Below, piece by piece: positions 13,172 to 18,302 of a stretch of DNA of 35,098 nucleotides. The position numbers and the translations under genes were made by a program. Source of the stretch: a virus. The stretch is from positions 1 to 35,098 of IMG/VR virus record IMGVR_UViG_3300037083_000027. One strand, written 5' to 3'. Below the pieces are notes generated by a model, which was given only the letters and a program-made list of their open reading frames with translations, searched no databases and was not told where the DNA came from. The first letter of the stretch is position 1, and the number at the start of each line of letters is the position of its first letter.

Positions 13172-13666
13172 ATGATTCAGGTTCTATCGAAAAAAGCCCT
13201 ACAGTTTCGTAATCCAGACAAGGCTCTGATAAATAAGAAAGCCACTCTGGGCCAACCCAATCAAATCAACACCACAAAGTTGGAAGAAGCTTTCTGTCGA
13301 GTTCCTCCAAACGTTGTGACCCGAGTCCCGGACTGGGTGAAGACTGACCCGATCTTCGACTGGTCTGTGGCGGACGGCGATCTTATGGAGATTGTCGTTA
13401 ACCCCGGCGCCCCAGCAAAGGGAGTCAATCTCCAGAGTCAGGGGCAACAGCAAGTAAACGACCAGAAGACAAAAGACGAAGAAGCCGAAGCTGCAAAAGA
13501 AAAGGCTGCTCTCCACGAGAAGCTAGCCGCCATGAACAAACAACAGCTGATCGACTACGCCGCCGAGAACCACGACTTGGAACTTGGCGCTGCCTTGAAG
13601 AAGGAAGATATTCTGGCTGCCATTCACGAAGCCGAAGCCGAGAAAGAGAAGGAGACGGCGGCGTAG
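13172..13666 (+). CDS. Head-region protein with C-terminal HeH/SAP-like domain (164 aa)
   Basis: I choose ATG 13172 over GTG 13157 because GAGGTG (13161-13166) is well placed before it. Residues 1-90 form an unrecognised domain with 'VPPNVVTRVPDWVKTDP'. A charged coiled-coil linker (about 100-122) leads to 'LAAMNKQQLIDYAAEN' and 'LKKEDILAAIHEAE', a helix-extended-helix pattern like HeH/SAP/LEM modules that often bind nucleic acid. The stop overlaps the next start (TAGTG). The neck-zone position fits a capsid or connector accessory; the domain call is by eye. Confidence 0.65.
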   Translation: MIQVLSKKALQFRNPDKALINKKATLGQPNQINTTKLEEAFCRVPPNVVTRVPDWVKTDPIFDWSVADGDLMEIVVNPGAPAKGVNLQSQGQQQVNDQKTKDEEAEAAKEKAALHEKLAAMNKQQLIDYAAENHDLELGAALKKEDILAAIHEAEAEKEKETAA

Positions 13667-14724
13667 TGAGCACTGGGATACAAGGCAGCATCTACAACCT
13701 GCTGGCTGAATGGTGGGGCTATACCGGGGGTTACTGTAACTTCCCGTGCGACCGCTCATTCAGCCCGTTGCAGGCTGCCAATCTGGTGGTAGGGGGAAAC
13801 CCCCCTTACCAGATTTCCGATTTCCTGAACGTCTACCCGAAATTCGGTACACAGCCGCAGAGTCTGGTTCAGGTGAATCCCGATACCGTATTCCCAGGCA
13901 GTGGCTATATTGTAAACGACCAGCTCACAGTAATCGGCCTAGATGCCTCAGGTGGTGTAGTTGTTGTGGCATCGGTAGGTGCCGGCGGTGTGCCAACCGC
14001 TTACACGATAGGAACGCCAGGGACTGGGTATCAAGTTACCCCGCAAGTCAATGCTATTGGGAGTCTGATCGTCACTCCTGGGCAGGGTGGTTTAGGCTAT
14101 CTCCTGAACGATCTTGCGGCCGTCAATCAACCAGGCGGAGGGGGTGGGGTCGCCCAAGTTAGCTCGGTTGACATCAATGGCTCCGTGCTTAGTCTTACTC
14201 TGGTAGAGGGCGGTACGGGATATGTGATAGGTGGTGACATTCCTTGCTCTGGCGGCAATGGCGCAGGCCTGTTAGTCAATATCCTGACTATTAACCCGTA
14301 TATCGGTTCTCAGACACAAGGAGGCAGCGGCAGTGGCGCCTCTGTGGATATTATCCAGATCAGTTCTCCAAACATCGTGTGTATTCCCCCGGCAGTACTT
14401 CAGATGTACATTAACCTTGCCACAGCCTGCTTGCAATCCGCTCGATGGTTTGAGTATTGGCCCATCGCTATGGCTTGGTTTGTAGCTCACTTCGTTACGC
14501 TTTATCTGCGAAGTGAGGGAAATGTCGGTACTACTGCGGGTCAGATCGCAGCCAGCGGAATTACTCGCGGAATCATGGTAACAAAGAGCGCGGGAAATGT
14601 GGCAGCTACAATCGAGGTTCCTCGCGGCTTAGATGATTGGGCAGCTTGGACCAGCACAGAATACGGGATACAACTGGCTACCGCGGCAAAAGCTGTGGGA
14701 ATAGGCCCGATGTACATTTGGTAG
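13666..14724 (+). CDS. Head-tail adaptor (DUF4054-like) with inserted repeat domain
   Basis: The N-terminal 'QISDFLNVYPKFG' (about residues 48-61) and the C-terminal 'AVLQMYINLATACLQSARW...MAWFVAHFVTLYLRS' (about 240-280) are the two halves expected of DUF4054-type adaptors, which sit below the portal. Between them (about 70-235) lies a large insert of Gly-rich repeats with the hallmarks 'GSGYIVND', 'GTGYQVTP', 'GLGYLLND', and 'GTGYVIGG'. DUF4054 proteins are usually about half this length, so the insert explains the 352 residues. The same repeat type is in the sheath gene. The GTG start overlaps the previous stop (TAGTG). Confidence 0.78.
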   Translation: MSTGIQGSIYNLLAEWWGYTGGYCNFPCDRSFSPLQAANLVVGGNPPYQISDFLNVYPKFGTQPQSLVQVNPDTVFPGSGYIVNDQLTVIGLDASGGVVVVASVGAGGVPTAYTIGTPGTGYQVTPQVNAIGSLIVTPGQGGLGYLLNDLAAVNQPGGGGGVAQVSSVDINGSVLSLTLVEGGTGYVIGGDIPCSGGNGAGLLVNILTINPYIGSQTQGGSGSGASVDIIQISSPNIVCIPPAVLQMYINLATACLQSARWFEYWPIAMAWFVAHFVTLYLRSEGNVGTTAGQIAASGITRGIMVTKSAGNVAATIEVPRGLDDWAAWTSTEYGIQLATAAKAVGIGPMYIW

Positions 14725-14725
14725 T

Positions 14726-15286
14726 ATGAGACCCGAAATCAAAGTTACGACCATTGTAGGCGTCGAGTCCGATCTGAAGAAGAGCCTCGCCTCTCTTCAG
14801 AAGAAGATGGTGTACGTTGGAGTTCCCGCCACTACGGCGCAAGAGCGTTTGAAAGACTTGGTTGGTCTGGCTGCTAAGTCTGCTGGGAAACGCAAGCAGC
14901 GGATACTTACTGTTGCCGCATTCAACGCCATCAACAATGCTCAGTTAGTGTACATCCATACTCATGGCAGCCCTTTGAAAGGGATTCCTCCTCGACCGAT
15001 TATCGAAGCCGCCATCACAGACAGAGATAATCTCGAATTGATAACTTCGGAGCTGAAATTAGCAGCCCAGGCTAGCCTATCGGGCAAGTCTGAAGACGTT
15101 ACGAAGTACTTAAAGCGTACATCTCTGCTTGCTGAGGGTCTGGTAAGGGCGTGGTTCACCAATCCCAAGAATCACTGGGCACCGAACGCCGCTAGTACGA
15201 TTGCGCGAAAAGGTTCTGATCGTCCGCTTATTGATACAGCGGAGTTAAGAAAGTCTATCATCGGCATAGTTACGGAGGGGCAATGA
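14726..15286 (+). CDS. Neck/tail-completion protein (HK97 gp10-like)
   Basis: The 186-residue protein has the general plan of tail-completion proteins found between adaptor and sheath genes. There is an N-terminal 'MVYVGVPATT' strand, 'HGSPLKGIPPRPIIEAAI' (about 75-93), a long helix, then 'ASTIARKGSDRPLIDTAELRKSI' near the C-terminus, where 'KGS-x-PLIDT' is typical. ATG 14726 is one base past the previous stop, and the stop overlaps the next gene (ATGA). The role is inferred from this pattern and gene order. Confidence 0.7.
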   Translation: MRPEIKVTTIVGVESDLKKSLASLQKKMVYVGVPATTAQERLKDLVGLAAKSAGKRKQRILTVAAFNAINNAQLVYIHTHGSPLKGIPPRPIIEAAITDRDNLELITSELKLAAQASLSGKSEDVTKYLKRTSLLAEGLVRAWFTNPKNHWAPNAASTIARKGSDRPLIDTAELRKSIIGIVTEGQ

Positions 15287-15927
15287 ATTTCGAGGACATG
15301 GCAAGTAAGTATCATCGGAAACACGTCTCTCTGAAAGCTACTGATGATGGCGAGGGAAAAACAGGTCTGCCCTCAGAAGGTCGAAGCAATGAAAAGAACG
15401 CCTCGGTGTTTGGAGGCGCGGCTGCTAAAGCAGCTAATTCACCGAGTGTGCCGGAGACTGCTCAACGCCTTGCTACTACCGCCGCTCACTTTGGGAGAAA
15501 CGTTCTCGGAAGAGATGATGAAGAATTCGGCGAAATGGCCAGTAAGTTTCACCGTAAACATATCTCAGCCAAAGCTTTCGATGTGGCTGTGCAAGACGGT
15601 ACTTTCGTTTCTCCCGAGAGCAAGATATGGCCCAAAGAGAGCAAAGACGGTCTTGCGGGTACGGTATCCGCAGCCGCATCGACTGGCGCCTATGTAGGCA
15701 GCTCAGTTGCCGAAGGAAATGTTGGAGCGCCTAAGCCCGATCACTCAGTAGGCAAGGGATTTGTGAGAGATGGCGAACCTCTTAGTGTGGAAGAGCGAGG
15801 TCACATGGGCGGAGTAAAAGGTGGCCCAGCTCGCGCTGAGATCCTAACAGGCGCCGAGAAAGAAAAGATTGCTCGAATGGGTGGGCACGCTCGTTGGGGC
15901 GAGGGAAAAAGCGAGAGAGACCGATAG
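15283..15927 (+). CDS. Doubly tagged head-region protein with Gly-rich basic tail (214 aa)
   Basis: I recognise no enzyme. Residues 3-14 (FEDMASKYHRKH) and 82-93 (FGEMASKFHRKH) are two copies of the motif also found at the ends of the protein at 9652 and the protease/scaffold. Between them is an Ala/Ser-rich linker. The C-terminus (from about residue 168, 'HMGGVKGGPARAEIL' and 'KIARMGGHARWGEGK') resembles KGG-type basic repeats common in small phage and bacterial DNA-associated proteins. The start is by ATGA overlap, and the stop overlaps the next GTG (TAGTG). A structural or packaged protein is inferred. Confidence 0.7.
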   Translation: MNFEDMASKYHRKHVSLKATDDGEGKTGLPSEGRSNEKNASVFGGAAAKAANSPSVPETAQRLATTAAHFGRNVLGRDDEEFGEMASKFHRKHISAKAFDVAVQDGTFVSPESKIWPKESKDGLAGTVSAAASTGAYVGSSVAEGNVGAPKPDHSVGKGFVRDGEPLSVEERGHMGGVKGGPARAEILTGAEKEKIARMGGHARWGEGKSERDR

Positions 15928-16292
15928 TGGCATTTGAACTACAAGACGTGGTGAATGACCCAGACCTCGCTGAGCCGTTTACCGTTCTTCGTCAACCTGG
16001 CTCTTTTCAACAGAATGGCTGGCAGACTTCCACACCTCAAACCATACAGGCATTCGGTGTGGTCACTGTGGCTACCCAGAAGGCTTTGCAGATGCTTCCC
16101 GAGGCTGATCGAGTAAATGCCGAAAGGATGTTCATCGCTGAATGCCCGATGTATGTGACCAGCGAAGATAACAGTATTACCTCAGACATCCTCATCTGGT
16201 GTGGGGTAAAGTATCGGGTCATGGTAGTAGGCGAATACGAGAATCGCGGCGGTTATTACTGCGCCGTAGCTACTCGGATGAAGGGAAATTAA
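15927..16292 (+). CDS. Head-closure/connector protein (121 aa)
   Basis: I choose GTG 15927 because it overlaps the preceding stop in the TAGTG style used elsewhere here. A TTG at 15894 would extend the protein into a basic stretch. The sequence shows the usual plan of small head-closure proteins: 'NGWQTSTPQTIQAFGVVTVAT', 'LQMLPEADRV', then 'DILIWCGVKYRVMVVGEYENRGGYY'. Such proteins seal the portal-adaptor channel after DNA packaging. The match is by overall pattern and order; exact family is uncertain. Confidence 0.7.
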   Translation: MAFELQDVVNDPDLAEPFTVLRQPGSFQQNGWQTSTPQTIQAFGVVTVATQKALQMLPEADRVNAERMFIAECPMYVTSEDNSITSDILIWCGVKYRVMVVGEYENRGGYYCAVATRMKGN

Positions 16293-16898
16293 GTGGCAAC
16301 GGCTCCCTTAGTTCCGCAGCAGATGAATGCCGTGATTCAGGCGATTACTCTGGCGATGGGACTTACTCTCACACCTGACCCTAACCCGAATAATCCTCAG
16401 CCACCAACCAACTACTACGGTGCTCGAATAGCTTGGCAGCAGAGAGGTCAGCCTCGACCCGACATAGAAGAGGATGTGGCATTCATTCGAGCCGTAGAAG
16501 TAGATGACGAATACAACCGCATCCGAGATGTGAGTTACGAGGTTACGGATGACGTATATACCAAAATCACCAACTACACTCGGGTGTGGGAAGCATCGTG
16601 GTATGTCTACGGTCCTAACAGTTTCGACAATTGCCGTAAGATTCGTACCCGACTTTTTGACCAAGACATACATGACCAGTTCGCGGCTTCTCAGCTCTAC
16701 CTAGTAACTGACCCGTCGGCCCCGCAGAGAGTACCAGAGCAAGAGAACGGTCAGTGGTGGGAACGAGTAGACTTCTCCGCAAGATTCAATGAAGAAGTTA
16801 CCGAAACCTACGAGACGCAGCCAGTGGAAATTGTTAGCGTCATCGTAGAAACCAGTCTGGGGCAACCAGTAGCTACCATACCGATTCAGGAGAGCTAA
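16293..16898 (+). CDS. Neck/tail terminator protein (201 aa)
   Basis: The GTG at 16293 follows the previous stop immediately. Residues about 25-65 are Pro/Asn-rich ('LTPDPNPNNPQPPTNYYG'). The core has 'YTRVWEASWYVYGPNSFDNC' (about 96-115) and 'NGQWWERVDFSARFNEEVTE' (about 152-171), the pattern of phage neck-terminator proteins that cap the tail tube. It sits directly before the sheath gene, as expected. Function by recognised pattern and order. Confidence 0.75.
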   Translation: MATAPLVPQQMNAVIQAITLAMGLTLTPDPNPNNPQPPTNYYGARIAWQQRGQPRPDIEEDVAFIRAVEVDDEYNRIRDVSYEVTDDVYTKITNYTRVWEASWYVYGPNSFDNCRKIRTRLFDQDIHDQFAASQLYLVTDPSAPQRVPEQENGQWWERVDFSARFNEEVTETYETQPVEIVSVIVETSLGQPVATIPIQES

Positions 16899-18302
16899 AT
16901 GTCCAGTCCAGCACTGCCTCTAACTCCTATTGCAAATGTAACCGTTCTGGCTGGTCCCGCTCTCGGAACACCCCCAGCTTTGAATCAGGGAATCATCATC
17001 GGCCCCAGCCCAAGAATCACTTATGCCAATCGTGTAGCTCAGTTTAGCGGCTTGGCTGCCATGCTGACTTACGGTTTCCAGATCACAGACCCAGAGTACC
17101 TACTGGCGCAGGCGCACTTCAGTCAATCCCCGGTACCACAATATGTGTGGATAGGCCTTCAGAATTCCAGTTCTTTGAAAACGATGAATCCTCACAGCGG
17201 TAACGCCGGGACTGGATACGCCGTTGGAGACATCTTTCTGGTGACCCAGGCTGGTGGAAGCCTCGGGTATGGGCAAGTTACTTCGATTACTACTGGTGGT
17301 GTAGTAACAGGTATTGTCCCCGTAACTCTACAAGATGGTACTGGTTACACTGTGGCTAACGGCTTGGTTGCTACGGCACAAGCGCCTAGCGTCGGCACTG
17401 GTCTTGAGGTAGACATTACTGCCATTGGCGAGACTCCTCTTGTGGCATTTACGAACTGCCGAGCAGCCAGCCCAGTGTGGTATGACGGGTTAGTGTGGAG
17501 TGCTACCGCGGCTGACCATGAAGCGATCTTCGCCTATGCTCAGGGAGTTAATTCTTCCGTGCCCACTTTCTACTATGGAGTAACTTCCGACGCAGGAGTT
17601 CCTCTGAACGAAACCACCGATGTGGCTTCTCTTCTTAAAGCTGCAATGTATACTCAAGGGGCATTGATCTACTCTACTACCCAAGGAGGCACTGCTCCAG
17701 GAAATGCTTACGCCGCAGCTGCCTTGATGGGAAGCGTAAATGGTCAAAACACGGGACAGCCCAACAGCTACTTTACAGAATGGGGCAAAGTTCTTGTTGG
17801 AATCACTCCGGAGCCTCTGACTCAGGCGCAGGTAAACATTGTCAACGGAAAGAATTGCAATGTCTACGTTGGTTATGTGGATCAGTATGAACTGGTGCAG
17901 TCCGGCATCACTCCCAGCGGCGTCTACATTGACCAGATTCTGAATCGAGCCATTCTGACCCTCTCGATTCAGTACTCCATTATGAATCTTCTGGTGAGCG
18001 TTCCCGTTGTGCCTCAGACTGACCCTGGAGAGATTCAACTGATTCATGCTGTGAACGAGGCTTGCCAAGCTGCCGTTGGTACTGGGTATCTAGCCCCAGG
18101 TACTTACGAAGGAATTCTACCTGTGGTAAATCTCGATCCCGGAGACCCGATGCCAGCGGGATACGTGAGCCAAGCTGCCTACCCATGGGCACAGGCCGCG
18201 CCTTCTCTAAAGTCTTCAAGACAGGCAATCCCGATCTATACCGTAATCAATGAAGCTGGCGCCGTGCAATCGGTAGTGGTCAGCGTGCTGGTAAATTTAT
18301 AA
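16899..18302 (+). CDS. Tail sheath protein (DUF3383-like) with inserted repeat domain
   Basis: The sheath contracts to drive the tube through the host envelope, so this gene defines the phage as a myovirus. The N-terminus 'IANVTVLAGPALGTPP...GIIIGPS' and later 'YGFQITDPEYLLAQAHFSQSP' match DUF3383 sheaths. After 'YVWIGLQ' an insert (about residues 100-180) carries 'GTGYAVGDIFLVTQAGG' and 'GTGYTVANG'. The family resumes at 'VWYDGLVWSATAADHEAI'. The C-terminal half includes 'PSGVYIDQILNRAILTLSIQY' and ends with 'VVVSVLVNL'. The insert belongs to the same repeat type as that of the neck adaptor. The start follows the previous stop without a gap. Confidence 0.88.
   Translation: MSSPALPLTPIANVTVLAGPALGTPPALNQGIIIGPSPRITYANRVAQFSGLAAMLTYGFQITDPEYLLAQAHFSQSPVPQYVWIGLQNSSSLKTMNPHSGNAGTGYAVGDIFLVTQAGGSLGYGQVTSITTGGVVTGIVPVTLQDGTGYTVANGLVATAQAPSVGTGLEVDITAIGETPLVAFTNCRAASPVWYDGLVWSATAADHEAIFAYAQGVNSSVPTFYYGVTSDAGVPLNETTDVASLLKAAMYTQGALIYSTTQGGTAPGNAYAAAALMGSVNGQNTGQPNSYFTEWGKVLVGITPEPLTQAQVNIVNGKNCNVYVGYVDQYELVQSGITPSGVYIDQILNRAILTLSIQYSIMNLLVSVPVVPQTDPGEIQLIHAVNEACQAAVGTGYLAPGTYEGILPVVNLDPGDPMPAGYVSQAAYPWAQAAPSLKSSRQAIPIYTVINEAGAVQSVVVSVLVNL

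Follow-up and report, generated by a model that had tools for sequence, protein, structure and literature searches.

The window, a 35 kb viral record analysed over its whole length (IMGVR_UViG_3300037083_000027; 35,098 nt), carries a run of head, neck and tail genes. Two of these, encoding a head-tail adaptor and the tail sheath, each contain a glycine-rich insert, at about 13864-14370 and about 17193-17429 respectively, where the preliminary description had located them. The inserts are made of one kind of domain, here called the unit, of about 75 residues and built of two similar halves. The features are listed below.

13666..14724, + strand: head-tail adaptor gene, DUF4054 family / PHROG 302 by profile matches, 352 aa, insert-bearing
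13864..14064, + strand: adaptor unit 1, first part (aa ~67-133), strands 1-4 and the start of the second half; unit profile positions 5-61
14065..14304, + strand: adaptor unit 2 (aa 134-213), a complete predicted barrel nested in unit 1; HMM positions 2-73, E 7e-22; aligned with T4 gp18 98-188
14305..14370, + strand: adaptor unit 1, closing part (aa ~214-235); profile positions 57-73, weak alone (E 0.0055)
14377..14688, + strand: DUF4054 core of the adaptor (aa 238-341); Pfam PF13262, E 1.6e-12
16293..16898, + strand: tail terminator gene; Pfam PF23961
16899..18302, + strand: tail sheath gene, DUF3383 / PHROG 205 by profile matches, 467 aa, insert-bearing
17193..17429, + strand: sheath insert, a single unit (aa ~99-177), six-stranded barrel in the AF2 model; homology to gp18 domain I

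Both proteins had been described as split by the insert, and the profile matches agree: DUF4054 matches adaptor residues 238-341, the PHROG 205 match spans the whole sheath, and uninterrupted relatives exist. The sheath core matches PF11863 and PHROG 205 with E values of 1.5e-33 and 4.7e-56. The model of the adaptor core aligned discontinuously (aa 45..345) with the E217 connector (8fvh_G, Z 9.2) and gave Z 7.4 against XM1 7kln. We also note a small gene between neck genes (15283-15927), whose product has the motif MASKxHRKHxSxKA twice and a tail resembling GHMGGxKGG.

A shared unit, nested in the adaptor

The GxGY turns that first drew attention to the inserts are enriched in both, with four in the adaptor against 0.17 expected from shuffles and three in the sheath against 0.14 (0 of 2000 shuffles were as high). 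An alignment of 55 diverse units has conserved G and Y positions. When scored with a profile of adaptor units alone, the sheath insert reached 55.3 bits; the best of 5000 composition-matched shuffles of the sheath insert itself reached 11.7. Scanning the whole record with the unit profile gave matches in the adaptor and sheath genes and in no others. Convergence of glycine-rich, low-complexity sequence could in principle make the two inserts look alike, both being Gly-rich and a masked tblastn search of phage records with single units having returned no match (the low-complexity masking is probably responsible), but the shuffle test rules out a chance likeness of this kind and the predicted folds of the two inserts match, leaving that explanation scarcely credible.

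A shorter related stretch had also been reported in the giant fibre (GGSGYAAAGG, 29834). This stretch aligned weakly with half a unit, scoring 4.4 bits over 39 columns, and the two GxGY motifs of the fibre are not an unusual number (p 0.085). We have therefore rejected it as an unproven copy; it is possibly a remnant of a unit.

The adaptor insert (aa ~67-235) consists of two units, the second of which lies inside the second half of the first. Along the adaptors of the window and of L007, L008, L093 and L094 the unit profile is matched in the order 4-61, then 2-73, then ~54-73. The closing stretch of unit 1, weak on its own in the window, has an E value of 0.0003 in L007 and recurs in relatives. 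In the adaptor model one barrel alignment spans residues 63..233, with ~77 residues aligned. The sheath of L028 and a tail protein of L022 have a nesting pattern similar to that of the adaptor. Two further arrangements were observed. In three sheaths (L050:5042-6736, L041:5692-7218 and L028:5707-7323) the unit is interrupted, either by a second unit or by a different domain, and in L033, L046 and L048 (proteins of ~500 aa), as well as L039 and L051, the second half of the unit precedes the first, as in circular permutation.

Insertion and mobility among virion proteins

A fecal phage (MT837395) whose MCP is 52% identical has an adaptor of 161 aa and a sheath of about 370 aa, both insert-free, and five contigs (L070, L072, L085, L086 and L089) likewise have both proteins bare. 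The uninterrupted sheaths of relatives are 370-384 aa long. In the adaptor, the N-terminal motif and the core are mostly 23-33 aa apart in bare proteins; this spacing is about 93-95 aa where another module is present, about 110 for a single unit and 193-201 for a pair. In the sheaths of L004 and L006 an unrelated domain occupies the site at which the window's sheath has the unit. Relatives without the insert have intact cores, and the inserts are therefore true insertions, not a part of the core in all relatives. It could be argued that they belong to the normal core of these families, as DUF3383 sheaths usually have some extra domain here and the L006 match extends over the full Pfam model with such a domain. 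The uninterrupted sheaths and bare adaptors among relatives, together with a unit sequence that varies independently of the core, led us to reject this reading as very improbable.

The adaptor site that otherwise holds the unit can also be filled by an unrelated module of ~62 aa (GQ..xGxPxGTxI...TLSxxATASG), which is present in the adaptors of L013, L014, L026, L035, L042, L044, L052, L054, L080 and others. The same module is found in the terminators of L035, L044 and L054 and interrupts the unit in the sheath of L041. A search with its profile gave a match to a phage decoration protein of solved structure (8eci, E 7.9e-6).

The proposal that the unit is a mobile domain of unlike virion proteins is borne out by its many hosts, its absence from some relatives and its swapping. 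Among relatives it is found in tail terminators (L003 and L018; the window's own terminator, 16293-16898, has no unit), in a head-closure-type protein (L031), in siphophage-type major tail proteins (L011 and L024), in a PHROG 376 tail protein (L022), in a fibre J protein (L029), in a nozzle-type protein and in ~500-aa probable capsid proteins (L033, L046 and L048), a name given from reading their sequence. With relatives carrying it in these other head and tail proteins, the unit therefore behaves as a movable virion surface ornament.

Unit and core histories are discordant in both directions: for L002 and L008 the values are 73% for the sheath core and 41% for the unit, and for L008 and L094 they are 55% and 80%. 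On the tree of units, few forks of which are well resolved, 12 changes suffice for the host label, compared with 19.2 after shuffling; on the sheath-core tree the occupancy states need 10 changes. Each copy in the window has its nearest relatives among units from genes of its own kind, and the two copies are not mutual nearest relatives. Recent copying between the adaptor and sheath genes of this phage is therefore not supported. A decorated adaptor (any module) accompanies 22 of the 26 decorated sheaths and none of the seven bare ones. We do not claim coordinated decoration of the two proteins, because only 1-3 of the pairs are phylogenetically independent. A scan of genome contigs with the sheath alignment gave a single match, to one distant prophage. 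This only bacterial genome match (L112, a contig of Dyella mobilis) is a prophage-like locus syntenic with the window; its adaptor is bare and its sheath has a different insert.

Predicted fold and relation to T4 gp18 domain I

The AlphaFold model of the sheath insert (55 units) is a six-stranded barrel with a pLDDT of 93.8. The adaptor insert is modelled with twelve strands at a pLDDT mostly of 80-95; the model of the whole adaptor is weaker (mean pLDDT 72). Structure prediction thus gives both inserts the same compact beta fold, as the preliminary description had anticipated.

A Foldseek search of the PDB with the sheath insert placed T4 chains (the portal-neck-tail complex and gp18) at ranks 1-8, with E values of 0.23 and above and a TM score of 0.57. 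Using VIA-align, the sheath unit was superposed on residues 101-191 of gp18 (3fo8; Z 6.0, rmsd 3.7) and adaptor unit 2 on residues 98-188 (Z 6.2, rmsd 3.0, 74 residues), although a Z of ~6 by itself could reflect a common barrel. In the literature gp18 domain I is delimited at residues 98-188 (PMC3004832). Profile searches point the same way. Gp18-type sheaths were the best matches among 177,635 PDB sequences (E 0.015), and in a ten-sequence set the gp18 proteins of T4 and four other Straboviridae matched at ~100-145 with E values of 1e-5 to 4e-9. HHalign of the unit profile against gp18 domain I (PF22639) gave a probability of 95.5 and P 1.4e-8. Single sequences matched the PF22639 Pfam model weakly (7 of the 55 units, best E 0.012), and the window's own unit had no match to it. 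In sequence, the homology lies for the most part in the first half of the domain. By sequence profile and by fold alike, the sole strong solved match of the unit is T4 gp18 domain I. Our assignment of homology relies on the agreement of independent methods, no single score being overwhelming. Foldseek with the whole adaptor returned mostly EF-Tu-type barrels and some connectors, which we do not read as kinship.

Like the unit, gp18 domain I (PF22639; 3fo8, 3foa) forms a barrel of six strands (~80-90 residues) that interrupts a contractile sheath protein. The two have a GxGY-V-x-D start in common, and the models of both the sheath and the adaptor copies can be aligned with domain I over the whole unit. 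They differ in setting. In T4 domain I is inserted into domain II of gp18 and has an additional helix, whereas in the window the unit sits directly in the DUF3383 sheath core and also in a neck adaptor, where it is nested in itself.

The preliminary description compared the inserts with the Ig-like domains of other phages, but the unit is not Ig-like. Ig-like domains (Big_1, Big_2 and others) are also mobile beta domains on sheath and tail-tube proteins, with a proposed role in adhesion, but no Ig family was matched at E <= 1 by the 55 units (Pfam, profile level) and the barrel fold is a different one, the relative being gp18 domain I. A parallel in location is the insertion domain (InD) of the XM1 sheath gp6, also an extra domain; the sheath whose N-terminal domain it interrupts can be aligned in sequence with the window's. 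The InD fold resembles FliD D3, unlike the window unit, and the related Adele domain combines a seven-stranded sandwich with a helix. Domains of the InD type have been reported from sheaths, from the nozzle of podoviruses, and from auxiliary capsid proteins and flagellar proteins (PMC12846349). Additional sheath domains, often Ig-like, are well described, with both adhesion and stability proposed as roles (PMC9230969). Mobile decoration of virions is therefore known in general. In the literature searched, most subscription papers aside, no gp18 domain I is described outside sheaths. As far as that literature shows, what is new is the gp18 domain I family as a mobile non-sheath module, and its nesting.

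Position and possible function

We consider it likely that the insert is a self-contained, mobile barrel, homologous to gp18 domain I and placed in permissive loops of virion proteins. It most likely points outwards, as T4 gp18 domain I suggests by analogy, together with the tolerance of the unit in so many hosts. Each sheath subunit would carry one copy and each neck adaptor subunit a nested pair, and outward-pointing copies would stud the exterior of the sheath and neck.

In T4, domain I protrudes, lies outside the intersubunit contacts, and contacts the baseplate and docks the retracted tail fibres; the domain I mutations G106S, S175F and A178V block fibre retraction (PMC3004832). Numbered without the initiator Met, the T4 sequence has G, S and A at 106, 175 and 178, in agreement with the publication. 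In the alignment G106 falls on the first Gly of GxGY, an invariant column in the alignment of 55 units; S175 and A178 are near the closing strand by position only. Given the retraction mutants and the correspondence of G106 with the first GxGY glycine, docking is the first hypothesis: the unit could, tentatively, be a knob on which, as in T4, other parts of the virion dock, for example the baseplate rim or tail fibres in their folded-back state. Conservation of the glycine may be merely structural.

We regard it as possible, if rather doubtful, that the unit instead stabilises the particle, mechanically or colloidally, for instance through neighbouring subunits, or is a near-neutral passenger of exposed loops. 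The site may be bare or hold the unit, an unrelated module or an ordinary DUF3383 domain, as such a reading would allow; stabilisation has been offered as an alternative role and the additional domains of T4 are thought nonessential (PMC9230969). Against this, the conserved G and Y positions in 55 units and the retention of the unit in many lineages suggest selection, although the fold alone could require such conservation, and the position of T4 domain I away from the intersubunit contacts (PMC3004832) speaks against stabilisation. Weak adhesion to capsular or other cell-surface polysaccharide appears unlikely. For the Ig-like additional domains of sheaths and tail tubes, weak carbohydrate binding has been proposed without proof (PMC9230969, PMC8718954), and the display of one or two units on each subunit, being multivalent, would be in keeping with weak binding. 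Among carbohydrate-binding families the 55 units gave only CBM_5_12, at E 0.35 in two of them (Pfam, profile level), so that neither these nor Ig families are significantly matched, and the best-matching characterised domain, T4 gp18 domain I, is documented in protein docking.

Returning to docking, the same knob on sheath and neck might form a track that holds folded-back fibres in phages unrelated to T4, the unit being a general docking module traded among sheath, neck, head-closure and tail-tube genes and sometimes inserting into itself. We offer this extension as speculative and, as it stands, improbable.

Until now T4 gp18 domain I has been seen as belonging to one sheath family. Relatives that are removable, nestable and swappable in neck, head-closure and tail proteins provide an evolutionary explanation for it. 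The comparison also identifies insertion-tolerant loops of virion proteins, which are useful for display, and the role of the T4 fibre-retraction loop becomes testable in other phages.
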